A DNA stretch of 52,304 bases. Source: a virus. The notes beneath the pieces were generated by a model that saw only the letters and a list, made by a program, of their open reading frames with translations, ran no database searches and was not told where the DNA came from. Made by a program: the position numbers and the translations under genes. Position 1 is the first letter of the stretch. Every line of letters starts with the position of its first letter. Below, piece after piece: positions 3,253 through 44,182 of the stretch. The stretch lies in IMG/VR virus record IMGVR_UViG_3300019458_000043, positions 1 to 52,304 of that record, one strand, 5' to 3'.

Positions 3253-3869
3253 GCGTTACGATTCACAAAATGCTGATGCCAAGCTGGGAGCGTCATAAAG
3301 CGGCGTGGTGTAACTGTACTAGATGTCCACTGGCACACGAACGACAGCAGGTTATCTTGTACCGGGGTTTCCTGCCGTGCGACGTGTTGTTTGTGGGGGA
3401 GGCACCCGGCGAGTCCGAAAACGTGCGTGGGGAACCTTTCGTCGGACCCGCCGGGCAGCTTCTCAACAGCCTTATTGCAGAGGTTGAAGTGGGTGGCAGT
3501 ACAAAGGACCCAGGTTTCCGGTACGGTGTCACCAATATCGTTGCTTGTATCCCCTGGGATGGCGACGAGGGCCATACTAGGGAACCTAAGAAAGAGGAAG
3601 CTGCCGCTTGTTCCAATCGACTTGCAGAGATTATGCGGTTGGCCCAACCCCGCCTAGTCGCTTGTCTTGGCCGAGTAGCCCAGCGTTTTCTACCAAGGGA
3701 CTTTGGTTCCTTCACGGACTGTCATAAACCGGAGGTGATCCACCTCGTTCACCCAGCCGCTATTCTACGCGAAGTAAACGAAGTAAACAGCGGAACTGCT
3801 GCCCTAATGGAAAAGCGGTTTATTGTCACCCTTAAAGCAAAGCTGGAGGAAGTGCTATGCAAACGTTGA
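3249..3869 (+). CDS. Uracil-DNA glycosylase, family 4-like (Fe-S type)
   Basis: The start at ATG 3249 overlaps the previous stop. The 206-aa protein has an N-terminal cysteine cluster (C21, C23, C26), the active-site block GEAPG followed by GEPFVGPAG, two further cysteines (about 107 and 125) suited to an iron-sulfur cluster, and the C-terminal HPAA block. These are the hallmarks of family 4/5 uracil-DNA glycosylases, which remove uracil from DNA. In a phage that probably reworks dUMP metabolism the enzyme could act on misincorporated dU or on a modified base; that link is inference. Confidence 0.88.
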   Translation: MSVTIHKMLMPSWERHKAAWCNCTRCPLAHERQQVILYRGFLPCDVLFVGEAPGESENVRGEPFVGPAGQLLNSLIAEVEVGGSTKDPGFRYGVTNIVACIPWDGDEGHTREPKKEEAAACSNRLAEIMRLAQPRLVACLGRVAQRFLPRDFGSFTDCHKPEVIHLVHPAAILREVNEVNSGTAALMEKRFIVTLKAKLEEVLCKR

Positions 3870-6209: not shown

Positions 6210-6551
6210 ATGCGACTTATCTTCGAGTTGGAAGGAAAAGAAAATGATTTGGATATAACCCAGTTAGTAACCCAGTTTACTTACTGGAGTGACGAATTGC
6301 GTTCGTTGCTAATACACTCCATACCCAACCAACTCCAGCCACTATCTCAAGCACAGAACCCTTCTAACCACGGAGAAACCGATGGCTCAAGTAACGAAAC
6401 AGACATCGCGACCGAAACCACAAACACGACCCCAGCCCCCGTCGAACACGTCATCATCGAATGGGAAGAAGAGCAGCTTGGTACCAAAGAGTACCCGGCC
6501 GTCGTCAAGCAGATCAAGCGACACGCCACAATCCGCCGGCTTCCTGGGTAA
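6210..6551 (+). CDS. Small protein overlapping the Sak4 gene, 113 aa
   Basis: Starts 3 nt after the nuclease stop. The first 58 codons (before the next gene begins) encode a folded-looking segment (MRLIFELEGKENDLDITQLV, then a hydrophobic helix). The last 170 nt are shared with the start of the next gene in another frame and encode Ser/Thr/Glu-rich sequence. Either both frames are used or one of the two annotated ends is wrong. Its position between a nuclease and an annealing ATPase suggests an accessory recombination role. Confidence 0.5.
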   Translation: MRLIFELEGKENDLDITQLVTQFTYWSDELRSLLIHSIPNQLQPLSQAQNPSNHGETDGSSNETDIATETTNTTPAPVEHVIIEWEEEQLGTKEYPAVVKQIKRHATIRRLPG

Positions 6552-7308
6552 AGACCCGCTGGGCATGGTTGTATATGGGCCTAGTGGTGTTGGTAAGACT
6601 TCGTTCTGTGCCAACTTCCCCAAGGTCGGCGTCATCCACGATCCGCAAGAGGGCGGTATCCTCAGTCTGTTACAATTCAAGCAATGCCCCGAACCTGTGT
6701 TCCACAAAGAGATGGACAACTTTGAGAAAACCTTGCTCTTTCTCGAAAAGGTAGCAACAGACACATTGGGCATTCGCACCCTCGTCGCTGATTCTGCCAC
6801 CGGGTTCGAGAAACTCTGTTTCCAGTACCACTGTCGAGAACACTTCGACAACGACTGGTCAAAAGAGGGTTTCTACTCATACCAACAAGGCCCGAAGAAC
6901 GCTGCCAAAACGGATTGGCCCATGCTCGTTGATGCACTCGACAACGTGCGGCGTGCCGGCATTAACGTCATCATCATCGCCCACTCGCAGGTCAAGAACT
7001 TTCAGAACCCAGTCGGCCCGGACTACGACAAGTACACGCCATACTTGGACAAGGAAAGCTGGCAGGTTCTCCACCGCTGGGCACAAGCTGTACTCTTTTA
7101 CAACTACTACGTTGACATCGAGAAAAAGAAGGGAGGAATTAAACCAAAGGTCAAAGAGGAAACTGAGTGTCGGCAAATCTATACCCAACACTCCGCCGCG
7201 TTCGATGCGAAGAACTGGTACGGTCTGGAACCAATCATCGACGCCGGCGATTCCGGTACGGATGCTTTCGACAACTTCGTGCGTGCGTTCAAATCAGCAG
7301 GCAAGTGA
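6382..7308 (+). CDS. Sak4-like RecA-fold ATPase (AAA_24 type)
   Basis: The 308-aa protein has a low-complexity Ser/Pro/Lys N-terminus (about 50 residues) and then a RecA-fold ATPase core: Walker A GPSGVGKTSF, Walker B in TLVADSATGF, and the sensor-like INVIIIAHSQVK. This is the pattern of phage Sak4 proteins, single-strand annealing factors usually encoded beside an exonuclease and an ssDNA-binding protein, as here. The start at 6382 is supported by ACGGAGAAACCG; a later ATG at 6565 would remove the tail but falls close to Walker A. Confidence 0.85.
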   Translation: MAQVTKQTSRPKPQTRPQPPSNTSSSNGKKSSLVPKSTRPSSSRSSDTPQSAGFLGKDPLGMVVYGPSGVGKTSFCANFPKVGVIHDPQEGGILSLLQFKQCPEPVFHKEMDNFEKTLLFLEKVATDTLGIRTLVADSATGFEKLCFQYHCREHFDNDWSKEGFYSYQQGPKNAAKTDWPMLVDALDNVRRAGINVIIIAHSQVKNFQNPVGPDYDKYTPYLDKESWQVLHRWAQAVLFYNYYVDIEKKKGGIKPKVKEETECRQIYTQHSAAFDAKNWYGLEPIIDAGDSGTDAFDNFVRAFKSAGK

Positions 7309-9002: not shown

Positions 9003-9496
9003 TCCAACCCAAGCCAACCCGCTACGGCCCTTATTTGTTCAAGAGCCGTCTGGAAGCACGCTGGGCAGTCTTTCTCGATAACTGCCCCAGCGTACTTCGA
9101 TGGAGTTACGAACCAGTCCGCTTTCGTGAACTCCAAACGGGTTGGGATTACACACCCGACTTTAGTGTTGTCACCGCTGGTCGAAAGTTGTATTTGGAGG
9201 TCAAACCTATATTCCCAACAGCCGAGTACCTCCATGTCCTCCAAGTATTTGCCATTGCTATCGCCCAGCAAGACAGGAACCTATCGTTTCGACCCGGCAA
9301 GCCCCCATTATTACAGGCACTTGTTCTCGGTTACGGCAACTTCTGGGACGACGATATAACTTTGCTCTCCGTAGAATCCCCAAACCTTCGCTTCTCACTC
9401 CAGAGCGTGTTTGCCAATTCTAAAACCGCACGTATCCTTGCCAACAACTATCGCTTCGACCTCCCCCAAAGAAAGAAAGGCCGCAGACGCAAATGA
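8999..9496 (+). CDS. PD-(D/E)XK nuclease-like protein
   Basis: ATG 8999 overlaps the cohesin-like stop (ATGA). The 165-aa protein shows the TnsA/restriction-type pattern FKSRLEARWAVFLDN (helix with catalytic Glu), then YTPDFSVV (Asp) and YLEVKP (E-x-K). This arrangement is common in small phage endonucleases of unknown target. The C-terminus is basic (PQRKKGRRRK), and the interspersed word CCCCCAAAGAAAG encodes part of it. The stop overlaps the DNA polymerase start. Confidence 0.78.
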   Translation: MIQPKPTRYGPYLFKSRLEARWAVFLDNCPSVLRWSYEPVRFRELQTGWDYTPDFSVVTAGRKLYLEVKPIFPTAEYLHVLQVFAIAIAQQDRNLSFRPGKPPLLQALVLGYGNFWDDDITLLSVESPNLRFSLQSVFANSKTARILANNYRFDLPQRKKGRRRK

Positions 9497-11487
9497 AACT
9501 ACTGGCAGTTGACACGGAAACTACCGGAGTCGATTTGTGGCACGGGTGCAAGCCCTTCTACGTTTCGACCTGTAACGAGGATGGGGCAATGCGATCCTGG
9601 GAATGGGATGTGAACCCAGAGACACGGGAACCTATCATCCCGCAACGAGAAAAGCGTGAGGTTTACCTTTACCTCGCCAAGCACCAACTCATCTTTCATA
9701 ATACAAAGTTTGACGTGCGTGGTTTGAATCGTATCGGTATCACCATCGACCGATGGGATATGCACGACACACTGGTTGCCAGCCACGTTGTTGCTTCTGG
9801 GGAATCACATAAGTTGAAAGATTTGGCTTTGTTACACCTCGGTATCGACGATAGGGATCAGCAGTCACTGCAAGAGGCTGTTAATGAGGCACGTCGCTAC
9901 GGTCGTTCGCTAGGTTGGCGAATCGCCAAAGTTGGTGATCCACATTTCCCTGCTATGAAAAAGACAGCCAAGGATGGTTGGTGGCCTATGGATATGTGGT
10001 TGCCGCGTGCGGTTGCAAAGCACGCCGGCTATCCGAAAAATCATCGTTTCTGGAGCGTATGCTCGAACTACGCCGATACCGACGCCGAGCGTACCATAGG
10101 TTTATGGTACGCTCTTTGGGATGAGATGAAACAGGAGGACTTACTCGATATTTACGAAACCCGTCGCAGGCTTTTGGAAGTTACGTTTATTATGGAAGAA
10201 CGTGGAGTTACAGTAAACCGTAGCCGCTTAATAAACGCCAGAAAAATATATATACGTAAAGCCCAAGCAGCCGAATCACTCTGTTTTAGGCTGGCCGACT
10301 TCAAGGTCGATAACTTAGCTAGCCCCAAACAAGTCGAAGGTCTTCTATACGGTAACTTCGGCCTCAAACCGATCAAACAGACAAAGGCGAGCACGCCCGA
10401 CAACCCACACTTTGCTACCGACAAAGATACAATCAGCAAACTCCAAACACAAGTGCGACCACAAAGTAGGGCTGGGTTGTTCCTCACTAATCTGGTTGCC
10501 AATCGTAAAAATCGCAAAGCTGCAAGCTATCTCGACGAGTACGAAATACGTGGGATGACACCCTACTATCTCGATATGAAAGCACAGCGGTTGTGGTGGG
10601 TTCTAAACCCTAACTTTAATATCACTGGTACTCGCACCCCGCGATTCTCCAGCAACAGCCCAAACCAGCAGAACGTGTCGAAGCAAGAGGTTCGTGACGA
10701 GGATGGCAATATCGTTGAATCTTACAACCTTCGAGAGGTGTTCGGGCCTGTACCGGGTCGCGAATGGTATTCACAAGATTATGAGAACATCGAACTTCGC
10801 ATCTTTGCATATTCATCAGGGGACAAGCGGCTTATCAAAGCCTTTGAATCCGGGTACAGTGTCCATCTACTCATAGCCGAAATTCTCTTTCCTAAAGAGT
10901 GGAAGCTATGCCAGCGACTTGGCGTGTCGTTCAAGGATTATTACAAATCGACACTTTACCAGTGGACTAAAAACGGCAACTTCTCTATTATCTACGGGGC
11001 CAGTGAGGCTAAGGCCGACTCAACTTACCATTTGGATGGTGCTTATGCCAAGGTACGCAAAGAGTTTCCACTTATAAGGCGAGTAACTGAGGAAAAGTCG
11101 AACGAAGCCAGGGAATACGGTTACGTGACTACTCTAGGTGGTTATCGCCTCCAGGTGGCTAGCAACGAACCGCACAAAGCACTCAACTATTTTGTCCAGG
11201 GTACTGCCGGCTGGTGCATAATCCTAGGTATGGTCCGCATTTTCGAGTACCTACGAGATTTTCCCAGCTACTACATGATTATGCAAATCCACGACGAACT
11301 GGACTTCGACTTTCCAAAGCACAAACGGAATCTTGCAATAATCTCTGAATGTGCTAGATTGATGGCCCAAAGTGGTGGTGATATTGGTATTCCTACCCCA
11401 GTCGATGTTTCCCGCCACCGACAGACCTGGGCACAAGGCGAGCACGTCACCACTACATCCCTAGATAATTCACGGATCGCAGTATAG
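9493..11487 (+). CDS. Family A DNA polymerase with 3'-5' exonuclease
   Basis: The 664-aa protein has an N-terminal proofreading domain with Exo I DTETTG (residues 7-12), Exo II NTKFD and an Exo III-like YADTD. The polymerase domain has motif A DYENIELRIFAY (Asp about 429), motif B KNGNFSIIYGA (Lys about 492) and motif C QIHDELDFDF (His about 600). The size and lack of a 5'-nuclease domain resemble T7-type phage replicases. It is the probable replicative polymerase and would need to accept any modified pyrimidine triphosphate made by the downstream genes. Confidence 0.95.
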   Translation: MKLLAVDTETTGVDLWHGCKPFYVSTCNEDGAMRSWEWDVNPETREPIIPQREKREVYLYLAKHQLIFHNTKFDVRGLNRIGITIDRWDMHDTLVASHVVASGESHKLKDLALLHLGIDDRDQQSLQEAVNEARRYGRSLGWRIAKVGDPHFPAMKKTAKDGWWPMDMWLPRAVAKHAGYPKNHRFWSVCSNYADTDAERTIGLWYALWDEMKQEDLLDIYETRRRLLEVTFIMEERGVTVNRSRLINARKIYIRKAQAAESLCFRLADFKVDNLASPKQVEGLLYGNFGLKPIKQTKASTPDNPHFATDKDTISKLQTQVRPQSRAGLFLTNLVANRKNRKAASYLDEYEIRGMTPYYLDMKAQRLWWVLNPNFNITGTRTPRFSSNSPNQQNVSKQEVRDEDGNIVESYNLREVFGPVPGREWYSQDYENIELRIFAYSSGDKRLIKAFESGYSVHLLIAEILFPKEWKLCQRLGVSFKDYYKSTLYQWTKNGNFSIIYGASEAKADSTYHLDGAYAKVRKEFPLIRRVTEEKSNEAREYGYVTTLGGYRLQVASNEPHKALNYFVQGTAGWCIILGMVRIFEYLRDFPSYYMIMQIHDELDFDFPKHKRNLAIISECARLMAQSGGDIGIPTPVDVSRHRQTWAQGEHVTTTSLDNSRIAV

Positions 11488-11495
11488 GAGTAAAC

Positions 11496-12695
11496 ATGGG
11501 TCATAAAGATCTCGGTGTACGAAACTACAACCCTTCCCTTGCCGCCCAGCAAACCAAAACTGGCAAGACCTACTTGGACAAAATTCGTAAGTTATCCCCT
11601 TACGAACGGTTGCTGTATTGGGTTTGCGAACGGCACCAAATCCACATCAACCGTTTTCCAGAGGGTGCCTACCCAACCGGCTGGTCCACAACAAACGGAA
11701 CCACGAGACGACAACGAACTCGGCATGTCAGTCAGACCGACCCACCTTGGACCGAAGACCCAATCCTCCAAACTGTATTCTTTTGCAACCCTTATCGGGA
11801 GAATGACAAAGTTACCGCTTACCTTCGCGATAATTTTAGGGAGAAGAACAAAAACAGCCCGTCGGCTTTTATGGGGTGTATTCTGCTCCGCTGGTACAAT
11901 TATATCCCAACTATGTCGAAGTTAATAAAAGCCGGGATTCCACACTCATTCGATACCGGCAAAGGCAAGCATGGTTGGGACTTACGTACCTACCTCTCTA
12001 TGTTAACCAAATTGCGTGACGAACGAAACGAACAGCTCTTTGGTGGTGCCTACATTATCCGCCCAATCGTTGATGGTAAGACAGGCGCTCGCAAGGTGGA
12101 GAGCATTGGCGAGTTACTTACCAATATGGCACTCGACGCCGACCTTTATCCACAAATTACTGGCAAGCACAAAACCCTGATGGGTCTTTCGCCCAGAACT
12201 TACGAGTCTTTGGGTAGTTCGACAGACGAAGACCAAGCCGGTTCGATGGCTTTTGCCTTTGCTCGACTCCGCGAGTTTAGTGGGATGGGCAAGTTTTACA
12301 ACTACCAGTTTATAGGGGACTTAGCTTACACCCACGTACTCCACAACGCTCCAGATTGGTTGACCTGGGGGTTCTGTGGCCCCGGTACCTCGCGAGGGTT
12401 GGTACGTCTTAACTGCCCATCTGGTAAAGCTACGTTACCGAACGGCAAGCGACTCCCTCGCCTTATGCCACTCCAACGAGGCTGGCAGGAACGATTGTTG
12501 CACGTCCAGGAACGAGTGAATAAGGATTTGAACCTTTCCCCCAAAAAAGATAGCAAGAACGGCGGCGAGGTTAGGCGGATGCAATACATCCACATGAGAG
12601 ACTTGTGCAACTGTCTTTGCGAGTACGATAAGTACGAGCGTGCCCTATTCAACGAACGGTCAATAAAGCGACCGTATTACGGACAAGGCAATTAA
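11496..12695 (+). CDS. aGPT-PPlase-like DNA base hypermodification protein
   Basis: This 399-aa protein carries the block YERLLYWVCERHQIHINR followed by PWTEDPILQTVFFCNPYREN and DKVTAYL. That pattern matches the alpha-glutamyl/putrescinyl-thymine pyrophosphorylase and HMUDK-helical family, a helical glycosylase-like fold found with thymine hypermodification genes in phages. In that pathway 5-hydroxymethyl-dU in DNA is activated and replaced by an amine or amino-acid adduct. The nearby hydroxymethylase-like gene supports the assignment. No separate P-loop 5-hmdU kinase was recognised in the window. The C-terminal third has no motif I recognise. Confidence 0.65.
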   Translation: MGHKDLGVRNYNPSLAAQQTKTGKTYLDKIRKLSPYERLLYWVCERHQIHINRFPEGAYPTGWSTTNGTTRRQRTRHVSQTDPPWTEDPILQTVFFCNPYRENDKVTAYLRDNFREKNKNSPSAFMGCILLRWYNYIPTMSKLIKAGIPHSFDTGKGKHGWDLRTYLSMLTKLRDERNEQLFGGAYIIRPIVDGKTGARKVESIGELLTNMALDADLYPQITGKHKTLMGLSPRTYESLGSSTDEDQAGSMAFAFARLREFSGMGKFYNYQFIGDLAYTHVLHNAPDWLTWGFCGPGTSRGLVRLNCPSGKATLPNGKRLPRLMPLQRGWQERLLHVQERVNKDLNLSPKKDSKNGGEVRRMQYIHMRDLCNCLCEYDKYERALFNERSIKRPYYGQGN

Positions 12696-12977
12696 ATGGA
12701 TAGACTAATCACAAACCTGCGTGCGTCGTTACACAAATACAGGTCCAAACAGGAGAGTATTATGACTGAGTTGCACAACCAGCGTGCGTCCGGGGACACG
12801 CAAGTATCCTTGATACTAAAATCGAAGTGTTCCGTTTGCAACGAATACCACGTTTGCAGGGACCACACATTCATGACAGTAAAAGCTGCCGCCGAGTTTT
12901 TGTTAAGTCATTTGGCACCTATCGACGTTCAGCATCTTGCCGATATGCACGTCGCTCGTCGAGGGGGTGAACAATGA
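12696..12977 (+). CDS. Small cysteine-containing protein, 93 aa (or 71 aa)
   Basis: ATG 12696 starts directly after the preceding stop with GGACAAGG upstream, but ATG 12762 (MTELHNQ) has the better site CAGGAGAG and would give 71 aa. The core is CSVCNEYHVC, a probable zinc or metal site, followed by a helical C-terminus (VKAAAEFLLSHLAPIDVQHL). The function is unknown. It is coupled to the next gene by an ATGA overlap. Confidence 0.6.
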   Translation: MDRLITNLRASLHKYRSKQESIMTELHNQRASGDTQVSLILKSKCSVCNEYHVCRDHTFMTVKAAAEFLLSHLAPIDVQHLADMHVARRGGEQ

Positions 12978-13195
12978 TACTTGATCGTGCCAAACTCGCT
13001 CGTATGATCCCCCGTTTCCGTGAAGTTGTCAAATCCCTTATCGGTGAGGCTAACGTAACCGACAACGAATTGACTGGCCTCGATATCCTGGAAACGTTCG
13101 ATCAGATACAACAACGACTTGCTATCTTGGAGCAATACTTCAAGGTAGGTCGCCCCCAGATTCTGACACCCACCCAACGCGAGGAGGATGATTGA
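12974..13195 (+). CDS. Small helical protein, 73 aa, unknown
   Basis: It overlaps the preceding stop (ATGA) and ends in TGATG with the next start. It is predicted all-helical (MILDRAKLARMIPRFREVV, then LDILETFDQIQQRLAILEQY). The position inside the nucleotide-modification group suggests a small accessory subunit, but no motif supports any activity. Confidence 0.55.
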   Translation: MILDRAKLARMIPRFREVVKSLIGEANVTDNELTGLDILETFDQIQQRLAILEQYFKVGRPQILTPTQREEDD

Positions 13196-13629
13196 TGCAC
13201 AACGTACCAATGATTACCGATGTGCGAGACTTCCATCTGGCTTTTCGTCACCCTGTTGTCGAGCGACCATCTCTCCCAATCATGCAACGTAGGATGCTAC
13301 GGCGACACTTGAACTACGGGGAATGGCAAGAACTGGAAAGTTCGATGGATAAGCTCGAGTCCCCGAACGAATTAACCCAGTTGGAAGGGCTTATCCAAGT
13401 TGCTGATGATATTGCCGACCTGATCTATGTTCTGATCGGGATGGCTTTAGAATACGGTATTCCTTTGGATGCTGTATGGCGGGCCGTACAGCGAGCCAAT
13501 ATGGCTAAGCTAGGACCGAACGGCTTGTCGATGTATGACGTTAATGGCAAGGTGTGCAAGCCTCTTGGTTGGTCGCCACCGGATATCAAACAAATTCTCA
13601 TCAACCACGGATTGGAGGTACCTAAATGA
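13195..13629 (+). CDS. MazG/PRA-PH-like nucleotide pyrophosphohydrolase
   Basis: The start is placed at ATG 13195, overlapping the previous TGA; a TTG three bases upstream is unnecessary. The 144-aa protein opens with DVRDFHLAFRHPV, carries an acidic helix EWQELE and the second acidic helix VADDIADLIYVLIGMALEYG, then VWRAVQRANMAKLG. This is the all-alpha NTP pyrophosphatase arrangement of the MazG-like/PRA-PH superfamily. It would convert (d)NTPs to (d)NMPs, either feeding dUMP to the hydroxymethylase-like enzyme or removing an unwanted canonical dNTP. Confidence 0.8.
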   Translation: MHNVPMITDVRDFHLAFRHPVVERPSLPIMQRRMLRRHLNYGEWQELESSMDKLESPNELTQLEGLIQVADDIADLIYVLIGMALEYGIPLDAVWRAVQRANMAKLGPNGLSMYDVNGKVCKPLGWSPPDIKQILINHGLEVPK

Positions 13630-13949
13630 TTTATGCACTTGTTCAGATTGTCAAGTTGCATGGTCGTAACTACGGGCATAGCCTTGTTGCTGAGGTTAAT
13701 GCTTCGAGTACGCAAGAGGCATTCATGTTCTTTGCTAGTCACTACAAAGAACTACCCAGGGATTATTACATCCATACACCAAACTGCCAGCACCTCCCAT
13801 ACGCTCGTACCTCCCGACACGGGCATATAAGGGAAGCCCAAGGTATCGTGGACGAGAGTTTTCGCAAGGCCCGGCCGTTAGTAGAAGGGGCTGAACCCCC
13901 AGAGCGTAAAACTACCCGCCCACCGCGTCGTGTTTTCCCACGTCACTAG
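13626..13949 (+). CDS. Unknown protein, 107 aa
   Basis: It overlaps the MazG-like stop (ATGA). The N-terminal half alternates like a small alpha/beta domain (MIYALVQIVKLHGRNYGH, then SLVAEVNASSTQEAFMFF). The C-terminal third is basic and Pro-rich (PPERKTTRPPRRVFPRH), suggesting nucleic-acid contact. No family was recognised. Confidence 0.6.
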   Translation: MIYALVQIVKLHGRNYGHSLVAEVNASSTQEAFMFFASHYKELPRDYYIHTPNCQHLPYARTSRHGHIREAQGIVDESFRKARPLVEGAEPPERKTTRPPRRVFPRH

Positions 13950-13966
13950 CTTTCAAGGACAGAACC

Positions 13967-15064
13967 ATGCACTATTTCTTCCGCAACGTGAACGATGCTT
14001 TTGCTGGGGTGGTCGATCAGCTTGCTGTTAGTGACAAGAACAACAAAGCAACACTCAGTGTACCCGTAAGCAGACATCCCAGTCGCTACGGTGAAGTGCT
14101 CCAAATCACAGAACCAGTAACCTTAACCTACTCCCACCCTTGGGAACGAGTCCTGTTTAGCCGGAAACGAGATTGCAACCCATTCTTCCACCTCTTTGAA
14201 GCTCTGTGGATGCTGGCAGGCCGTAGAGACGTGGAATTTCTCGCCTACTTCAATCCCCGAATGCGTGAATTTTCAGACAATAGCAAAACTTTGTGGGGTG
14301 CCTATGGCTATCGCTGGCGACGTGCTTCGTCCCTCTATCCTTTGGAAGATCAAGACCAGATAGAGAATACTATCAATGAACTCAAGGTGGACCCTTATAG
14401 TCGTCGTTGTGTAATCGCCCACTGGCGGGATGTTGATTGGTGTGCTATCCACGCTCATAGCAAAGACATACCGTGCAACACACATATCTATTTCCAGATA
14501 CTGGACGGTAAACTGGAAATGACTGTATGCAATCGCAGTAACGATATGATTTGGGGGGCGTTAGGGGCCAACTATGTCCATTTCACTTTCCTCCAAGAAT
14601 ACATCGCTTTGGCCCTTAACGTGGCGATGGGTCGTTACCATCACTTCTCCACAAATATGCACGTTTACATAAACAACTGGAAACCTGACTTATGGCTGTC
14701 TGATCAATCAGCGGACGGGGGGCTCCAATACCCTTCGTCTGCATTTTCTACTCCTCTTGTTCTTTATAGTAACCGAGCATCCTTCGACACCAAACTCCCC
14801 GACTTACTGGACTGGGCTACCGAGCACGTAAACCACCAAGCTACCTATCATTGGGATGTGCCGTTCTTCGATGGTGTTGTCCACTACGCTGCCAAAGCGT
14901 TCGCCCTCTACAAACAAAAACGATACGATGATGCCCTTGCACTATGCCGTCTAATTCACTCGTTCGATTGGCGAGTAGCTTGCCACGAATGGGTACTCCG
15001 CCGCAAGTTGCGTGCAAAGACCAACTTCCCCGAACTTGAAGTGAAGGACAACGATTATGTATAG
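13967..15064 (+). CDS. Thymidylate-synthase-family dUMP/dCMP hydroxymethylase-like enzyme
   Basis: The 365-aa protein belongs to the thymidylate synthase superfamily: an NPFFHLFEALWMLAGRRDV entry helix, a catalytic cysteine block DIPCNTHIYF (Cys about 170), then NRSNDMIWGALGANYVHFTF (about residue 189) and HHFSTNMHVY. The WGA-x-GAN sequence in place of LG-x-PFN is the form I associate with phage hydroxymethylases rather than true ThyA, so the product is probably 5-hydroxymethyl-dUMP (or -dCMP). That specificity call is inference. It follows the MazG-like and aGPT-PPlase-like genes. Confidence 0.8.
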   Translation: MHYFFRNVNDAFAGVVDQLAVSDKNNKATLSVPVSRHPSRYGEVLQITEPVTLTYSHPWERVLFSRKRDCNPFFHLFEALWMLAGRRDVEFLAYFNPRMREFSDNSKTLWGAYGYRWRRASSLYPLEDQDQIENTINELKVDPYSRRCVIAHWRDVDWCAIHAHSKDIPCNTHIYFQILDGKLEMTVCNRSNDMIWGALGANYVHFTFLQEYIALALNVAMGRYHHFSTNMHVYINNWKPDLWLSDQSADGGLQYPSSAFSTPLVLYSNRASFDTKLPDLLDWATEHVNHQATYHWDVPFFDGVVHYAAKAFALYKQKRYDDALALCRLIHSFDWRVACHEWVLRRKLRAKTNFPELEVKDNDYV

Positions 15065-15135
15065 TTTTTCATCCACAAAACAAAGTTTAACAACCTTTCC
15101 CACCTTCGGACAACATTTACCCCAAGTGAACAAAC

Positions 15136-15576
15136 ATGACTATCGAGACAACTGACCGCCACCCGGACACTGATTTTTGGGTTGCTGTCCAGCAAACAGA
15201 CATTACCCAACTCACTGAAAAAGAGAAAACCTACAAAGGTTCTTGGAAACGTCGCGGTGGTCGCGGGGCATGGTTCACCATCGCTCGACCTCTTGATCGG
15301 CTGGAAGTTATTGTTAACCGTTTTGACGATGACATATTCAAAGCCTGCGAGGCTGATGATACCGGGGCCGACGGTTCCGCCTTGGCATGTATCCGCGATC
15401 TACGTCGCTACTTTACCCTCCTCGAAGCTGAAATCATTCGGCGGAAGCGAGTTTGGGGTGGTAAAGTTGCTGTAGCCCGTTCCCTCGACAACCCCGACCC
15501 AATCCGTTCACCAACTTCAATCGCTTACGACAATGAGCTACTCAACTCTTCTGATATGGGAGAACCCCGTGGTTAA
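15136..15576 (+). CDS. NMAD1/DUF1599-like protein
   Basis: The 146-aa protein contains TYKGSWKRRGGRGAWFTIAR followed by PLDRLEVIV and a long helix ending RDLRRYFTLLEAEIIRRK. The Y-x-x-SW plus R-x-x-R-x-E arrangement resembles the nucleotide-modification-associated domain 1 (DUF1599) family seen beside modified-base genes. Its biochemical role is not established. The last 44 nt overlap the primase gene in another frame. Confidence 0.5.
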   Translation: MTIETTDRHPDTDFWVAVQQTDITQLTEKEKTYKGSWKRRGGRGAWFTIARPLDRLEVIVNRFDDDIFKACEADDTGADGSALACIRDLRRYFTLLEAEIIRRKRVWGGKVAVARSLDNPDPIRSPTSIAYDNELLNSSDMGEPRG

Positions 15577-17797
15577 ACTCAAAGACGCCCCAGACAAAGT
15601 CAAGCCTTTCCTTTTCTTTGGGGTGGAGTGCGACCCACACCCCAAACAGACACAAGGTACTTGCCCTTTCTGCCACGCTGAAAAACTCGGTATCGAATCC
15701 GAAACCGGAAAGTGGCAATGCCTCAAGTGCAAAGCCGGGGGCAATATCTATTCGTTTCTTCGCGTTCTGTACGACGAGTCCTATCAACAAAGCGGTAATG
15801 TACGCGACTATAACGCTTTCGCCAGCGAACGGAATCTCCGCCCCGAAACACTGAGGGCTTGGGGGTTAGTAAAATCCGTTACCACTGGTGACTGGTTGTT
15901 ACCAGGTTATAACGAAACCGGGAAACTTACAAACCTCTACAAGCTGGCTGAGGTGGGTGGTAAGCAACGTGCTCTCTCCACCCCAGGCTGCAAACTCCAA
16001 CCGTTCGGCACTTTATTGCTCAAGACCGAGCACAAAACGCTCTACATTACTGAGGGCTGGAGTGACGGTATGAAGTTGTGGGAAACCCTACAAACTCTTC
16101 GAGCCGGGGCGAACGGGCTAATAAAAACCAAAAATCCAACCCAAGCCCTAGCAGCTACAAGCGGCGTCCTCGCCATGCCAGGGGCCGCCGCTTTCCAAGA
16201 GTCGTGGCTAACCCACCTTGCCAATCGGCACGTTATTCTACTCTTAGACAACGACCACCCCAAACGATTTCCTCCAGACCACCCCAAGGCCGGCAAGGTG
16301 ATGCTCCACCCAAAAACCCGTAATAAGATTATACCGGGTTGGGATGGACAACAGCGTATAATTACTATGGCCCAGAAAGCCGATACCCCGCCCAAGTCTA
16401 TGAAACAGATTGTATGGGGCGACGGCGGGTTCGACCCTGAAATGACAGACGGCCTGGACATTCGCGACATTATCAACGAGATCGGCCCGCTCGCCGGGGT
16501 CCAGTATTTGCTGGACAGGGTTCAGCCCGTTCAACTCTCCCCAAAGAAAACCGAACCCGGTCAAGCTGTAGCTGTCGACCCAGTTGAATGCACCACCTTC
16601 ACAAACCTTACAAAGCACTACCATGATACACTCCACTTCTCGCGACAGATGGAAGATTCACTGGTAGTCATGCTAGCTGTTGTTCTCTCGACCGATCTGC
16701 GAGGGGATCAATTATGGTTGCGTGTTATCGGCCCACCAGGGTCCGGCAAATCAACGCTCGCCGAAGCCATCACCGCTGCCCAGGACTATATTTACGCTTC
16801 GTCCCTTTTTACTGGGTTCCACTCAGGCTACTTGGGGGACAAAGGCGAACGAGCCAAAGGTTCGGCCTCTCTGGTCCCCCAGATGGACGGAAAAACAGTT
16901 GTTATAAAGGATGGTGACACTTTGCTCAACTCGTCGGGTTGCAACCGCATTCTATCAGAGTTACGTGACCTATATGACGGCACTTCCAGAGCCAGGTACC
17001 GTAACCGCGAGCAAGGGTTATACGAAGGTCTACGTATCACGTTCATCTTGTGTGGAACCGACGAGCTTCGGTCCTTGAACCGAACGCACTTAGGGGAACG
17101 GTTCTTGGATTGTGAGGTGTTAGGTAACGAGGATACTACCCCTTACCTGAACCGTGCAATCAAAAACGCTTTCTCCCAATTATCGACCGGGCTTGCCAAT
17201 GGTTCTCCCGACCACACTGGGGTTGGTGTTGAAGATAATATGCTGGTTATCAAGCAGGCTACATTCGGTTTTATCAGACACTTAAAGGAAACACTCTCCA
17301 GTACCACCCCGCCGACCCATACCACCGAAGTCGATAATGTCATTGGGGCACTAGCCCAGATAGTCTCTTACGCCCGTGCCCACGTCAAGCGTGACGGGCA
17401 GGATATCTCTTACCGGCCACGACCGGAGTTGGCAACCCGGTTGGGTGCCCAGTTTACTCGGCTCTCTGTTTGTATGGCAATCGTTCTCGGAAAACAAGAG
17501 TTGGATAAAACCGTGGTTCGTATCTTGCGAAAAGTAGCCCATGACACCTGCCAGGGTTTCCGCTTCGAGGTAATGAATCTTTTAGCCAGCAGACCCAGCT
17601 TATCCGCTGTCCAGTTATCGAGGAAACTCGGCTTAGCCGAAACCGCCGTTCGGCGGTTGTTGTATGACATGCTCGAGTTTAAGATCATCGAGCGTGTCTC
17701 CCGGCCCAATAACTCCGGACAACGTGGTCGCGACGTTCACCTGTGGAAGTTAACGCAAGCCATCCACTCTCTCTGGAAGGTTGCGTTTGGTCACTAA
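15533..17797 (+). CDS. DNA primase-helicase (zinc finger, TOPRIM, AAA+ ATPase)
   Basis: The 754-aa protein has an N-terminal zinc ribbon (CPFCH, then CLKCKAGG, about residues 43-70), a TOPRIM-type segment (LYITEGWSDGMKLWE, then VILLLDNDHP), and a C-terminal ATPase with Walker A VIGPPGSGKSTLAEAI (about residue 400) and a Walker B-like VVIKDGDTLL. The end is a winged-helix-like region (LSAVQLSRKLGLAETAVRRL). It should prime and unwind the replication fork for the family A polymerase. The word AATAAAAACCA at 16120 and CCCCAAAGAAAA at 16539 lie within coding sequence. The long overlap with the previous gene makes the exact start less certain. Confidence 0.88.
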   Translation: MSYSTLLIWENPVVKLKDAPDKVKPFLFFGVECDPHPKQTQGTCPFCHAEKLGIESETGKWQCLKCKAGGNIYSFLRVLYDESYQQSGNVRDYNAFASERNLRPETLRAWGLVKSVTTGDWLLPGYNETGKLTNLYKLAEVGGKQRALSTPGCKLQPFGTLLLKTEHKTLYITEGWSDGMKLWETLQTLRAGANGLIKTKNPTQALAATSGVLAMPGAAAFQESWLTHLANRHVILLLDNDHPKRFPPDHPKAGKVMLHPKTRNKIIPGWDGQQRIITMAQKADTPPKSMKQIVWGDGGFDPEMTDGLDIRDIINEIGPLAGVQYLLDRVQPVQLSPKKTEPGQAVAVDPVECTTFTNLTKHYHDTLHFSRQMEDSLVVMLAVVLSTDLRGDQLWLRVIGPPGSGKSTLAEAITAAQDYIYASSLFTGFHSGYLGDKGERAKGSASLVPQMDGKTVVIKDGDTLLNSSGCNRILSELRDLYDGTSRARYRNREQGLYEGLRITFILCGTDELRSLNRTHLGERFLDCEVLGNEDTTPYLNRAIKNAFSQLSTGLANGSPDHTGVGVEDNMLVIKQATFGFIRHLKETLSSTTPPTHTTEVDNVIGALAQIVSYARAHVKRDGQDISYRPRPELATRLGAQFTRLSVCMAIVLGKQELDKTVVRILRKVAHDTCQGFRFEVMNLLASRPSLSAVQLSRKLGLAETAVRRLLYDMLEFKIIERVSRPNNSGQRGRDVHLWKLTQAIHSLWKVAFGH

Positions 17798-17815: not shown

Positions 17816-18100
17816 ATGCTTATCCTAACTCGTAGCGTTAAGGACAAAATCATTATACCGGATGTCGGCATTATTATCACCTTAACAGAGATTTATCGCG
17901 ATGGTCGTCGTGCCAGGATCGGGATTGAAGCACCCGAAAATATGAAGATATACAGGCACGAATTGATGACAAAGGACCAACGGGATATAGCAGAACAGAT
18001 AATGCGAGGCGAGCGGCCCCTTGGGGCTTGCTATATCCCTAGCATAAAAGCGGCCTATGAAACTACACAAAATAGGCAAACTAGGGAAACCAGCCCATAA
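17816..18100 (+). CDS. csrA: CsrA/RsmA-family RNA-binding regulator
   Basis: The 94-aa protein begins MLILTRSVKDKIIIPDVG and has the conserved IGIEAPENMKIYRHEL segment, covering both RNA-contact regions of CsrA (Leu4/Arg6 and the R in the H-R-E-E-like segment, here YRHEL). CsrA dimers bind GGA motifs in mRNA leaders and change translation or stability. The C-terminus carries about 35 residues beyond the usual core. AAGGAATTACC is the ribosome-binding site. As the last gene before the late block it could either rewire host metabolism or control phage transcripts. Confidence 0.9.
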   Translation: MLILTRSVKDKIIIPDVGIIITLTEIYRDGRRARIGIEAPENMKIYRHELMTKDQRDIAEQIMRGERPLGACYIPSIKAAYETTQNRQTRETSP

Positions 18101-39189: not shown

Positions 39190-41322
39190 ATGCCTGTATT
39201 CGGTTTCGGCGATAAAGAGGTTGCACTACGTTTGAAGAACCTGGCTAGGGAGCGAGAACATCGGTCCCAGTGGTTCAACCGCAACTATGTCAAAGAGTTG
39301 CAACGACTCGCTTTGCGGGCTTATATTATCATTCTTGATTACCCAATAGAGCCAGCTACCCAAGTCGGAGGTGGCTGGCGATTAGGGGTAGGTACTGGCG
39401 TAATCCATTTCCGAAACGATGTGGACTCACAGGATCGAGCCGAGCACCGCAACTCTCGAGAGTTGGAAGTGTCGATCAAAACTCGTGATCTAATTCCCCA
39501 TCGTGACCCACAAACCGGCGAGTGCGGTCGGGTGCGAGTGTTCAACTTCACAGAGCAAACCATACCAGCTTGTGTCCCTGTAAGTGCTGTGCAGGATAAC
39601 TTTGGCGACTACTACATCCTTGAGCCATACGAGCAAAGCGGGGCTGGCGAGGGTACATCCACTACCACCACTTCACTCCCTACTTGTACCGGCGAGTGCA
39701 AATACGTCTGGAACGAAGCCGGTAACACCTGGCAACTAGGCACACAAACTTGCGGCCCCCCGACCACCACTTCGACTACCACTTCAACCACCGCTGCCCC
39801 CTGCACCGGCAATTGTATCATCGTCTGCCCAAGTGGGACGTGGCAGCTAAACAACACTTGCGAACCGGGTTGCGATTGTGGTTTGGAGATACTTATCGGT
39901 CAGCCTTGTACTATCGGAGCACAGCAAGGTGCTCCCTGCGGCGACGGGACTACTACGACCACCACAACCACTACACTCGACCCTTGCTCTTGCGGTACGA
40001 CCTCCACTACTACTACTACATCCCAAACAACAACCGACCCGGATACAACTACTACGACGGAGAACCCTTGCCATTGCCTACCCCCAACCTACTGCGGCAC
40101 AGAAGATGGTGAATGTACCTACACCCAATGCTCTCAAGGTGAGATTACATACATCATTGACTGTGAAACTGACGATACAACTACTACCACACCCACCCCT
40201 TGCTCCGCCTCGCAATGTTCACAGATTTGCACCAATGGTATTTGGACTTTATGTGCCAACGACCCACCAGTAGAGGATCAGAGTGACCAGGAACTAGAAG
40301 ATGAGAACGACGACCCCATCGACGGTAATGGTTGTGACCAAGGTTGTGCCCACGGCTGCGGGTGCCCGGAGCTAGGCGACGCTTGCTCTCCAGAAAACGA
40401 AGTTCGTTATGTCGGTTGCGAAACCACCACAACCTGTGACTGTAATACATCCACTACGAGTACGAGCAACCCAGAGTGTGCCGGTGGTTGTGATTGGTTA
40501 TGGATACCCACGTCGGGCTGGGCTAAGATTAACGATTTCTGTCACTCGTCATGTCCCTGCCCCGAACCTGTCCCCGTTGGTACCAACTGCCAGACAGCCC
40601 ATACAGACTGTGAACCTGTGGAACCGATTGCAACCACATTGCCCCCAGTAGAATGCACAGGTGGTTGTATCTATTGGTGGCTCGACGTAATCAACCAGTG
40701 GCATTTGACTGACTACGACTGTTCACTCTCTGTCGATTGTACTTGCGTTGAGCCAAGCACTCCCGGTAATTATTGTGCCCCTATCAAGTTACCTTGTATC
40801 AAACTCACCACTACTACGGTCAACCCCAATACCACCCCACCCCCTTGCGAGGACTGTTATACAACAACGACAACCTCTACCACTTCCACTACAACGACCA
40901 CCCCCAACCCTTCTGATTGCGAAGGCGACTGCTTATGGCAATGTAGTAGTGATGTTTGGAACCTTATTGATTTTGGGTGCAACCTGAGCCAAAACTGCTC
41001 ATGCTTACCACCATCTATTGCTTGTCATGACGACTGTGAACGGGCCAGGACGATCTGTTTCCAGACAACTACAACACCTGCCCCCACGACAACCAGCACA
41101 ACCATCACAACTTCATCTACAACTACTACAATAGGGCCATGTGAGACAAGAGGTTGTTCAGTACAGTGTCTCAGAAATGAGTTTGACCAGTTGGTATATG
41201 TGCAAGTATTAGACAATTGTGACTTTGATTGTACCTGCAACACACCTTTTCCCATAATAGGAGAGCCATGTAGTTTTGAGTTTGCCGTTCAAGGATTCCC
41301 GTGTGACACTACCACTACCTAA
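39190..41322 (+). CDS. Thr/Cys-rich modular tail protein
   Basis: This 710-aa protein has a folded N-terminal domain (about 150 residues, LQRLALRAYIIILDYPIEPA, then HRDPQTGECGRVRVFNF). About eight modules follow, each with a C-x-G-x-C start, an aromatic W-x-L centre, a C-x-C and a final C. Modules are separated by runs of 4-9 threonines, with alternating ACA, ACC, ACG and ACT codons. The protein ends CDTTTT. The layout is mucin-like and disulfide-rich, suited to an exposed, rigid, possibly O-glycosylated adhesion stalk. Two glycosyltransferase genes follow at once. Confidence 0.72.
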   Translation: MPVFGFGDKEVALRLKNLAREREHRSQWFNRNYVKELQRLALRAYIIILDYPIEPATQVGGGWRLGVGTGVIHFRNDVDSQDRAEHRNSRELEVSIKTRDLIPHRDPQTGECGRVRVFNFTEQTIPACVPVSAVQDNFGDYYILEPYEQSGAGEGTSTTTTSLPTCTGECKYVWNEAGNTWQLGTQTCGPPTTTSTTTSTTAAPCTGNCIIVCPSGTWQLNNTCEPGCDCGLEILIGQPCTIGAQQGAPCGDGTTTTTTTTTLDPCSCGTTSTTTTTSQTTTDPDTTTTTENPCHCLPPTYCGTEDGECTYTQCSQGEITYIIDCETDDTTTTTPTPCSASQCSQICTNGIWTLCANDPPVEDQSDQELEDENDDPIDGNGCDQGCAHGCGCPELGDACSPENEVRYVGCETTTTCDCNTSTTSTSNPECAGGCDWLWIPTSGWAKINDFCHSSCPCPEPVPVGTNCQTAHTDCEPVEPIATTLPPVECTGGCIYWWLDVINQWHLTDYDCSLSVDCTCVEPSTPGNYCAPIKLPCIKLTTTTVNPNTTPPPCEDCYTTTTTSTTSTTTTTPNPSDCEGDCLWQCSSDVWNLIDFGCNLSQNCSCLPPSIACHDDCERARTICFQTTTTPAPTTTSTTITTSSTTTTIGPCETRGCSVQCLRNEFDQLVYVQVLDNCDFDCTCNTPFPIIGEPCSFEFAVQGFPCDTTTT

Positions 41323-41333
41323 AGGGGAACAAG

Positions 41334-43298
41334 ATGAAACTTACAGTAGGGATGGCTACCTACGATGATTACGACGGTGTAGTTTTTAGCATCCAAGCCT
41401 TGCGGCTCTATCACCACGTCGATGAGCTACTGGTTGTAGATAACAACCCCGGTTCGCTTGCCGCTCGGCACCTCGCCGATTTTTGTCAAAAAACTGGGGC
41501 ACGGTATATCCCTATGCCGGAGCCCGTAGGGACTTCCGCCCCTCGCAATCGCGTCTTTACCGAAGCTACCGGCGATGTTGTATTATGTATGGACAGCCAT
41601 GTACTAATCCAGCCAGGTGCTTTGCAATTACTTCGAGAGTGGTTTATTGATGTATCATCCCACAACGATCTCGATATGGCCCTGCTTCACGGGCCGATGA
41701 TGCTCGACTCCTTCAATGGTATTCAGACACACTTCGATAGTGTCTGGCGTGCCGAAATGTGGGGTATCTGGGGTCACGCTTGGCGATGCCGTTGTTCAGA
41801 CCACGCCCGGTTCATTTTCTCAATGCAACCGTCTGAGTACCAGCAAACATACTACCTGCCAATCTCCCCCAAAGAAAACCTCGCTGCCTGCCCCTACTGT
41901 GGTAACAAACTCCCCGACCTATCTTGGTCCCAACACGAATCTCAAATGTTGGCCCTCGGCTTTGAGCCTTGTGCTCTAAAAGACGATGAACCCGCGTTCG
42001 ATATTCCAGGCCAGGGTCTCGGTCTCTTTGCCTGTCGTAAAGATGCGTGGTTAGGCTTTAACCCACACTTCCGCGGCTTCGGTGGGGAGGAAATGTATAT
42101 CCATGAAAAGTTTCGGAAAGCTAACCGCCGTGTGTTTTGTCTCCCATTCCTCAAATGGTGGCACCGCTTCGGGCGTCCCAGTGGGGTAAAGTATCCACTA
42201 ACCCGCTGGAACAAGGTCCGCAACTACGTGCTCGGCCACAACGAATTGGGGTTGCCACTCGATCCGGTCCATGCCCATTTTGTAACCACCAACCTCATGA
42301 CCCAAAGCCAGTGGGACTACCTGGTAGCCGATCCTATCCATCGGCCTTCCAACCCGAATGTATTGTCGGTACCTTCCCCCAAAGAAATCCCAGCCCCGTC
42401 CATAACTCAACTGTACCAGGCAGCCCGTGGGACATCTCGAGATCTTGACCAACATATGGATCAGTTGCGGTTGTTGGCGGGGCTTTGTGATAACATAACT
42501 GAGATATCAAAACGAAAAGAATCCACCATCGCTTTTGTTGCCAGCGGCCGTCCAGTCATTTCCTACAATACTGAGTCTGGGGACCAAACCTACCAAACCC
42601 TAATCCGCATAGCCCCCAACTTCCAATGGCACGACCAAAACTCCACGCAAGTCGAGTCTATCGCAGCTACCGACCTGTTGTTCATCGACTCCGAACATAC
42701 CTACGCACGGTTGAAGGAGGAACTGAACAAGTACGCTACCGCTGTCCGACGGTTTATCATATTACATGATACTCAGTTGCACGGCGAGCGGGGGGCCGAC
42801 AACGGGCCAGGTCTAAACCAGGCATTGCGAGAGTTTACAGCCGACAACCCCGCTTGGTTCGTCTATTATTACACACCTAACCAGTTCGGGTTAACGGTAC
42901 TTGGTATCCGACCGAGTGACCGCCCAGCTAATAAAATCCACGCTTGGGCACCTATGTATGGTCCCGGTACCGAGCTAACTAATTTACTCAGTTCGCTTGG
43001 TGTCGTGTCCAAACCGAACTGTACCTGTCGGGCAATGGCAAACCAGATGGATATCTGGGGGGTCCAGGGTTGTAGAGAGCCGGCCCATCACCAGCAGATT
43101 CTTACCACCATCCATAGTAACAAAGACAAGTGGGGGTGGAAGGATAGGGTACTTGCCATCACAAAGGCTGTTACTAGTGGTCTAGCATTTAAGCTAAACC
43201 CACTCGACCCATTCCCCTCCCTGATCGACGAAGCGATCCGACGAGCGGAGTTAGCTGAACAATCAAGACTTACTTCCATCGAAATTGAAGGCCACTGA
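41334..43298 (+). CDS. GT2-like glycosyltransferase fused to methyltransferase-like domain
   Basis: Residues 1-300 of this 654-aa protein read as a GT-A glycosyltransferase: VGMATYDDYDGVVFSIQAL, VVDNNPGS, CMDSHV in the place of the usual DxD, and FRGFGGEEMYIHEKFRKANR. Residues about 390-525 resemble the class I methyltransferase/cephalosporin-hydroxylase-type fold: LLFIDSEHTYARLKEELNKY and RFIILHDTQLHG. A Cys-containing C-terminal domain (CTCRAMANQMDIWGVQGC) ends it. The likely role is adding and trimming sugars, on the virion or on host surface glycans. The stop overlaps the next ATG. Confidence 0.8.
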   Translation: MKLTVGMATYDDYDGVVFSIQALRLYHHVDELLVVDNNPGSLAARHLADFCQKTGARYIPMPEPVGTSAPRNRVFTEATGDVVLCMDSHVLIQPGALQLLREWFIDVSSHNDLDMALLHGPMMLDSFNGIQTHFDSVWRAEMWGIWGHAWRCRCSDHARFIFSMQPSEYQQTYYLPISPKENLAACPYCGNKLPDLSWSQHESQMLALGFEPCALKDDEPAFDIPGQGLGLFACRKDAWLGFNPHFRGFGGEEMYIHEKFRKANRRVFCLPFLKWWHRFGRPSGVKYPLTRWNKVRNYVLGHNELGLPLDPVHAHFVTTNLMTQSQWDYLVADPIHRPSNPNVLSVPSPKEIPAPSITQLYQAARGTSRDLDQHMDQLRLLAGLCDNITEISKRKESTIAFVASGRPVISYNTESGDQTYQTLIRIAPNFQWHDQNSTQVESIAATDLLFIDSEHTYARLKEELNKYATAVRRFIILHDTQLHGERGADNGPGLNQALREFTADNPAWFVYYYTPNQFGLTVLGIRPSDRPANKIHAWAPMYGPGTELTNLLSSLGVVSKPNCTCRAMANQMDIWGVQGCREPAHHQQILTTIHSNKDKWGWKDRVLAITKAVTSGLAFKLNPLDPFPSLIDEAIRRAELAEQSRLTSIEIEGH

Positions 43299-44182
43299 TG
43301 ATACCGACCGTACTTTGCTTGTGTCCTACATATAACCGGCCAGCCCATCTGGTTTCAAATGCGTTGGCGTGCTTTGAAATCCAGGATTATCCGGCCAGCC
43401 ACCGCGTATTATTTATCCTCGATGATAAACCTTGCTATAGTATGCAACGCGGTACCAACTGGATAGTCTGGGCCGAGAACCGTCGCTATCCATCTCTGCC
43501 AGCCAAGTATAACGAGATGCTCCGAATGATCCGCGACATTCCGTGGTGCCAGTTCACCGGTTATCCACCATCTAACGATCTGCCCACACCCAGCCCGCTG
43601 ACTATCCACCATCAACACCATCACCCCTGGAACTGCCACCCAGACCTTGTACTTGTATGGGATGACGACGACGTGTACCTCCCTTGGCACATCTCGTCGT
43701 ATGTCGAGGCATTACAGCAGCCACGTATCCACCATCAACCATCCGAATTACGCCCTGGTTGGGTCCACCCCACCATTGTATGGACTGACTACCCCGGTCG
43801 CCTGATCCAGGAAATAGCCACCGGGAGGTTCCACGGTAGTCTCGGTGTATCCTGGGAGTTGTTGGACCTGCTGGAAGGGTGGGTTACGACAAAGCGAGCC
43901 GACTTTGACCAACAGATGATTGCCAAGCTCCACAAAAGCTTACCACCATCCCGCCCGCCCGTTAGGTATCCACCATCATACATCTTTCGGTGGGGTTCGA
44001 CGGGCGGTGCTCATTGCCAGTCGCATATGAAGACACCAGCCAACGAGACATGGTACGAGGACTATGCAATGTTAGCAACACCTCAACCGTATCGGGGGGA
44101 ATTGGTGGCAGCTATGGATAAAACCACCAGCCAATACATTAAAGAGATAGCGGCGGGTTTCGTTCCCCAACCCGCTAGCTAG
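43298..44182 (+). CDS. GT2-like glycosyltransferase, 294 aa
   Basis: It begins TVLCLCPTYNRPAHLVSNAL, the standard GT2 opening, then VLFILDDKPCY and LVLVWDDDDVYLPWHI (metal-binding Asp cluster, residues about 122-125). An acceptor region follows (GWVHPTIVWTDYPGRLIQEI). It is the last gene of the late block and is coupled to the glycosyltransferase-methyltransferase gene. The DNA word TATCCACCATC occurs four times inside it, in two reading frames. Confidence 0.82.
   Translation: MIPTVLCLCPTYNRPAHLVSNALACFEIQDYPASHRVLFILDDKPCYSMQRGTNWIVWAENRRYPSLPAKYNEMLRMIRDIPWCQFTGYPPSNDLPTPSPLTIHHQHHHPWNCHPDLVLVWDDDDVYLPWHISSYVEALQQPRIHHQPSELRPGWVHPTIVWTDYPGRLIQEIATGRFHGSLGVSWELLDLLEGWVTTKRADFDQQMIAKLHKSLPPSRPPVRYPPSYIFRWGSTGGAHCQSHMKTPANETWYEDYAMLATPQPYRGELVAAMDKTTSQYIKEIAAGFVPQPAS

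Follow-up and report, generated by a model that had tools for sequence, protein, structure and literature searches.

A kinase-less candidate 5-hydroxymethyl-dU gene cluster beside the family-A DNA polymerase of a viral genome record

The gene cluster of Pseudomonas phage M6/YuA (Mesyanzhinovviridae) leads to 5-(2-aminoethyl)-deoxyuridine (dU), and the route to such amine adducts needs a 5-hydroxymethyl-dU (5-hmdU) kinase together with an amino acid:DNA transferase (ADDT) or PUGT. The present analysis concerns a gene cluster in a 52,304-nt viral stretch (IMG/VR record IMGVR_UViG_3300019458_000043; hereafter the window, meaning the whole stretch) that holds a dUMP hydroxymethylase-type synthase and a PF18723 protein, here termed HEL. 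Among phages described earlier, pelagiphages carry pairs of a synthase and aG/PT-PPlase1 without the remaining pathway, and a pelagiphage clade was described that encodes a deoxynucleotidase together with a putative glucosyltransferase (PMC9599517). Solitary TAGTs (PF20691) of unknown role were found in 288 of 753 genomes (PMC13216743, 2026).

The cluster in the window is rather probably a kinase-less 5-hmdU module in which HEL would present 5-hmdU to a separate group-transfer enzyme. As judged from the gene content, thymine is very likely replaced by 5-hydroxymethyluracil in the DNA of this uncultured phage. Related viral stretches used for comparison are given as L### or G001.

Gene content of the cluster

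The following genes made up the cluster and its upstream neighbor:

9493 to 11487, + strand: family-A replicative DNA polymerase, 664 aa (PF00476, 5.9e-43)
11496 to 12695, + strand: HEL, 399 aa, without a P-loop domain (PF18723, 4.3e-36)
12696 to 12977, + strand: 93-aa open reading frame (ORF), no Pfam or PHROG family found and no homologue in the compared related loci
12974 to 13195, + strand: 73-aa ORF, no family above cut-off
13192 to 13629, + strand: MazG-like nucleotide pyrophosphohydrolase (PRA-PH; PF01503, 2.6e-10; PHROG 671, 2.3e-26)
13626 to 13949, + strand: 107-aa ORF, no family found
13967 to 15064, + strand: predicted dUMP hydroxymethylase of the thymidylate synthase superfamily, M6 type, 365 aa (PHROG 5131, 2.1e-89)
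15136 to 15576, + strand: A4 protein, 146 aa, all-helical (conserved family; no Pfam)

These frames agreed with those of a preliminary description made from the sequence alone, and the cluster started directly 3' of the polymerase gene, with HEL beginning 8 bases past the polymerase end. In a polymerase scan of viral contigs, relatives of the polymerase were 34–48% identical and HEL followed the polymerase in most of them. No DNA-level neighbors of the cluster were found in phage records.

HEL matched HMUDK_hel (PF18723; 5-hmdU DNA kinase, helical domain) at 125 bits against a curated cut-off of 25, and it also matched PHROG 2396. PF18723 was formerly named aGPT-PPlase1, a name still kept in public annotations of HEL matches, so the aGPT-PPlase-like label of the preliminary description was correct; the HMM search of 11496 to 12695 that it had called for returned this family and not an unrelated one. 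HEL thus belongs to the helical-domain family and not to the amino acid:DNA transferases of PF18724. Among the 31 family columns that were at least 90% conserved, 29 were kept in the window HEL. The conserved core was alike in kinase-linked and kinase-free members, with two conservative positions alone differing. A kinase hidden within the 399-aa protein was ruled out, as its N-terminus has no P-loop. Relatives of HEL were obtained by profile search; a single-sequence pattern returned none. Among the compared loci HEL was never fused to another transferase, and a 637-aa SP10 kinase in BFVD was the sole suggestion of a HEL-kinase fusion.

An AF2 model of HEL, built on an alignment of contig-derived rows only, reached a pLDDT of 80.6 and a pTM of 0.83. 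Foldseek comparison with BFVD returned predicted phage HMUDK helical-domain proteins and the SP10 5-hmdU kinase. The best PDB match, a weak one, was the 5-PmdU glycinyltransferase PUGT (8z2n; E 0.024, probability 0.99, TM 0.31–0.41), and the weaker matches included HhH DNA glycosylases. Homology of HEL to ADDT was not significant by profile comparison, so the likeness to PUGT is suggestive only; the HEL sequence had no match among PDB sequences. The model suggests a glycosylase-like, base-flipping fold that HEL may have in common with ADDT.

The synthase fell into the M6/YuA-type family and was 40% identical to the M6 enzyme. Residues E78, C170, D193, N202, H232, and Y234 were retained, corresponding to E58, C146, D169, N177, H207, and Y209 of E. 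coli ThyA (L149), while H147 and Q165 were each replaced by N and both W80 and W83 were lost. Loss of this Trp pair favors hydroxymethylation in thymidylate synthase mutants. Asn177 selects for dUMP and against dCMP (discussed in PMC8670742), and phage M6 is held to pass through 5-hmdU as an intermediate (PMC6449724). The window enzyme scored far under the NCBIfam thymidylate synthase cut-offs. Because of Asn177, the active-site pattern, and the identity to an M6 enzyme with a 5-hmdU intermediate, it is best read as a dUMP hydroxymethylase. The hydroxymethylase-type synthase and 5-hmdU precursor step put forward in the preliminary description are thereby well supported at the level of family, active-site residues, and identity to M6.

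The MazG gene matched PF01503 at 41 bits (cut-off 21.3), in agreement with its earlier designation as a MazG-like hydrolase. The earlier label of the protein encoded at 15136 to 15576 as NMAD1-like did not hold: PF07659 (DUF1599), which we take to be NMAD1, had no match in the window with the threshold relaxed to E 10. A4 itself fell into no Pfam or PHROG family, and 23 A4 relatives showed no consistent Pfam family. A4 is nevertheless a real conserved family with the motif SWKxRGG...DRxE...RDLRRYLLLVEAE, and its gene lies close to the synthase gene in many viruses, including 32 of 107 surveyed HEL loci. In one locus (L125:10052-11161) A4 and a MazG domain, a homologue of the window MazG, formed a single fused protein, so the functions of A4 and MazG appear linked. 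The idea that A4 itself is MazG-like was rejected, as the profile match came from the fused MazG part of L125. Comparison of the A4 fold with the PDB gave no significant match; the weak ones, suggestive only, included DCTPP1, RS21-C6, and PRA-PH.

Outside the cluster, three further genes were listed:

3 to 1154, - strand: ParB-like gene, truncated at the contig end
41334 to 43298, + strand: GT2 glycosyltransferase with a CmcI-like domain (PF00535, 2.9e-11)
43298 to 44182, + strand: GT-A-like protein (by motif)

The P-loop 5-hmdU kinase family (PF18748) had no match in the window. A 24-sequence kinase profile, which found three of three known positives and gave no convincing match in 33 kinase-less records, likewise had no match in the window and not even a weak one among its ORFs. 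Canonical P-loops occurred on two plausible genes only, 6382-7308 and 15533-17797, each of which encodes a different ATPase and not this kinase. A recognizable 5-hmdU kinase is thus missing, as the preliminary description had stated. Neither ADDT/PUGT (PF18724) nor TAGT had a match in the window, and, unusually, no transferase lay near HEL, its upstream neighbor being the polymerase. The ParB-like gene was severed at the left end of the window (the homologue in the 58-kb record G001 has 530 aa), so these absences apply to the assembled sequence. The closest relative, L124, has a polymerase 48% identical to that of the window and lies in G001, which is colinear with the window except for a different breakpoint and covers the replication and structural modules. 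G001 carried HEL in two copies, the synthase, MazG, and A4, with the MazG homologue between HEL and the synthase; no kinase, ADDT, or TAGT was found in it. The amine or amino-acid adduct anticipated in the preliminary description was therefore not supported: its route is unlikely because PF18748 and PF18724 are absent from both the window and its closest relative.

Partner genes of HEL in related viral loci

About 300 HEL loci were collected from phage records, the polymerase scan, and four scans of viral contigs with profiles or proteins; after dereplication and a requirement for 4 kb or more on each side of HEL, 107 viral loci remained. The loci were drawn from "best 80" lists and their frequencies are not population values; family models were built in this analysis, with Pfam checks on selected members. 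HEL occurred with kinase, ADDT, and synthase in 30 loci, with kinase and synthase in nine, and with TAGT and synthase in 30. A further 29 loci contained HEL and synthase with neither kinase nor TAGT, plus one with ADDT, and the other eight had none of these partner genes. In total, 39 loci had a kinase and 30 a TAGT, and no locus had both. Kinase and TAGT genes both directly adjoined HEL (median gap 0 bp). Matches to PF20691 confirmed the TAGTs on L142 and on whole records.

Most loci with neither kinase nor TAGT had another transferase beside HEL. A pelagiphage-like group had class-I methyltransferases (PF13489/PF08241, above cut-off), L211 and its relatives had GT-B enzymes (PF13524), L124 had FkbM, and L012 had Mom (PF25680); sugar-activating enzymes were near HEL in L105 and L121. 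Altogether, a recognized transferase lay within 3.5 kb of HEL in 93 of the 107 loci. Six of the 14 loci without one at this distance had a synthase, the window included, and one of these six (L297) had a sub-threshold TAGT. The supported branches of the HEL tree showed at least 10 gains or losses of the kinase and at least eight of TAGT. Six polymerase-clade relatives without HEL also had no synthase, kinase, TAGT, or A4 in the fetched stretches.

The synthases were uniform whatever the partner. All 99 synthases of HEL loci kept E58 and C146, had Asn at position 147, and had lost W80 and W83; Asn177 was aligned in 98, the single exception being a gap. Since all of these synthases are of the dUMP type, the predicted target of glycosylation in the TAGT systems is 5-hmdU and not 5-hmC.

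Several arrangements in individual loci were recorded. A TAGT and a radical-SAM/SPASM gene lay between HEL and the dUMP-type hydroxymethylase in four loci (L142:13233-14150, L100:5450-6274, L011:11729-12520, and L128:14116-14964), which are predicted to be glycosylated 5-hmdU systems. In pelagiphage-like contigs a class-I SAM methyltransferase was directly upstream of HEL and no kinase was present (L048:9051-9908; homologues in L026, L028, L040, L047, L050, L051, and L065). In L012 a ParB-like gene, homologous to that at 3 to 1154 on the - strand of the window, and then Mom came directly after HEL (L012:11254-13189). The same locus held a 639-aa hydroxymethylase ORF with an intein-like insert beside the catalytic Cys (PCL...HNCN; L012:14414-16333), and an apparent intein-like insert was also seen in a 1036-aa relative of the primase-helicase (L011:16490-19600). 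Downstream of the primase-helicase, the window encoded a CsrA-like regulator (17816-18100, PF02599) that was also represented in several relatives by homologues. This phage, predicted to carry 5-hmdU, has a gene of the uracil-DNA glycosylase superfamily (3276-3869, PF03167) that is conserved in the polymerase clade. After the tail genes, a gene for a Thr-rich, Cys-rich protein was followed by the two glycosyltransferase-type genes (39190-44182), a set that may encode an O-glycosylated virion protein.

Proposed mechanism and the final base

Established from sequence are the gene identities, the hydroxymethylase residues, the lack of kinase and ADDT in the assembled contig, and the partner pattern among relatives; the activities of the enzymes, the presenting role of HEL, the part played by MazG and A4, and the final base are inferred. 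In the proposed mechanism the synthase would convert dUMP to 5-hmdUMP, which host kinases would raise to 5-hmdUTP, and the phage polymerase (9493-11487) presumably incorporates 5-hmdUTP into DNA instead of T. Competing dNTPs would be removed by MazG, which presumably trims pyrimidine triphosphates, perhaps with help from A4. HEL would then bind or flip 5-hmdU in DNA and present the base to a separate group-transfer enzyme. Depending on the relative, this enzyme would be a glycosyltransferase of the TAGT or GT-B type, a methyltransferase, or the P-loop kinase, the last of which opens the way to ADDT and amine adducts. Because no transferase is linked to HEL in the window, the likeliest final base is 5-hmdU itself or a non-amine derivative, for which an unlinked or unrecognized transferase would be responsible.

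That 5-hmdU is itself the final base, as in SPO1-like phages, with HEL a leftover or a DNA-binding factor that protects 5-hmdU, was judged somewhat unlikely. It would fit the lack of a linked transferase, a state shared by the window and about five other synthase-bearing HEL loci at a distance of 3.5 kb, and the strong divergence of the window HEL, but the 29 intact columns among the 31 conserved in the family argue against simple decay of HEL. Glycosylation of 5-hmdU by the unlinked glycosyltransferases at 41334 to 44182 is a poorer prospect. The window does encode a PF00535 glycosyltransferase, and kinase-less relatives do have TAGT or GT-B enzymes beside HEL with dUMP-type synthases; however, the two genes come after the tail genes and beside the gene for the Thr-rich protein, have no counterpart in G001, and match neither TAGT or GT-B models nor any HEL-linked transferase, and the protein starting at 43298 has no phage match. 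Virion or surface glycosylation is more likely for these genes than DNA decoration, which is possible.

It is improbable that the full known pathway operates, with kinase and ADDT unrecognized or encoded in sequence beyond the contig and with a final base of the amine or amino-acid adduct kind known from M6, ViI, and PaMx11. The contig ends inside the ParB-like gene, and the polymerase-clade relatives L010, L013, and L136 have the order polymerase, HEL, kinase, ADDT, synthase. The kinase of those relatives, however, adjoins or is near HEL, a region that is complete in the window, and PF18748, PF18724, and the kinase profile had no match in the window or in G001. Very little weight can be given to an ordinary thymidylate synthase and no modified base at all. 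The catalytic Cys, Asn177, His207, and Tyr209 are indeed residues of the whole superfamily, but all 99 HEL-linked synthases have N in place of H147 and neither of the two conserved Trp, the scores against the NCBIfam models are far too low, and the nearest kin are M6-type enzymes.

Several points weigh against the presenting module favored here. The HEL branch of the window is very long (2.0–2.7 changes per column), which fits decay or a new role, and a presenting module without a linked transferase has no obvious job; we know of no activity of HEL on its own. The metagenomic contig is not closed, and a transferase could lie in the gap. By simple counting, the mutual exclusion of kinase and TAGT was strong (Fisher 6.5e-8 overall and 2.8e-5 when the later sample was taken by itself), but it was not significant by phylogenetically independent pairs (median p 0.25), a test with few informative pairs (10 pairs, 0 in the same way and 3.1 opposite).

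More generally, PF18723 may tentatively be seen as a presenting subunit for 5-hmdU in DNA that works with exchangeable partners, namely kinase, TAGT, GT-B, methyltransferase, and Mom. If so, phages would hold a family of uncharacterized 5-hmdU derivatives, glycosylated and methylated ones included, and a single precursor base would lead to several unexplored DNA decorations. The window would then be a stripped form, working alone or with an unlinked enzyme, and the present name of the PF18723 family would mislead annotation. For some solitary TAGTs (PMC13216743) the suggested substrate is 5-hmdU in DNA rather than 5-hmC.

Comparison with known systems

The window resembled M6/YuA in its dUMP hydroxymethylase (40% identity), its HEL/ORF055 homologue (26%), and a family-A polymerase nearby. 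It differed in having no P-loop kinase (M6 ORF054, PF18748) or ADDT (M6 ORF051, PF18724), no PLP enzyme, radical-SAM enzyme, or Nmad5, and in carrying MazG and A4 where M6 has the HD nucleotidase. In M6, PaMx11, Sonora, MW2, and RHph_I65 a P-loop kinase gene stands just before the HEL gene, a position without a kinase gene in the window. PaMx11-like phages with PUGT (PDB 8z2n) share HEL and the hydroxymethylase (L003), whereas the window contains neither their kinase nor PUGT.

HTVC023P-type pelagiphages were closer in layout, with HEL and a dUMP-type synthase near PolA and no kinase reported (PMC9599517). In the pelagiphage-like loci of this survey the A4 gene also follows the synthase, but a class-I methyltransferase is directly upstream of HEL where the window has the polymerase. 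TAGT DNA glycosyltransferases (PMC13216743), absent from the window, stood beside HEL in its kinase-less relatives. Set against these systems, two features appear to be new: a systematic exchange of partners around a constant pair of HEL and dUMP hydroxymethylase, and the window as a form of this pair without a linked partner.

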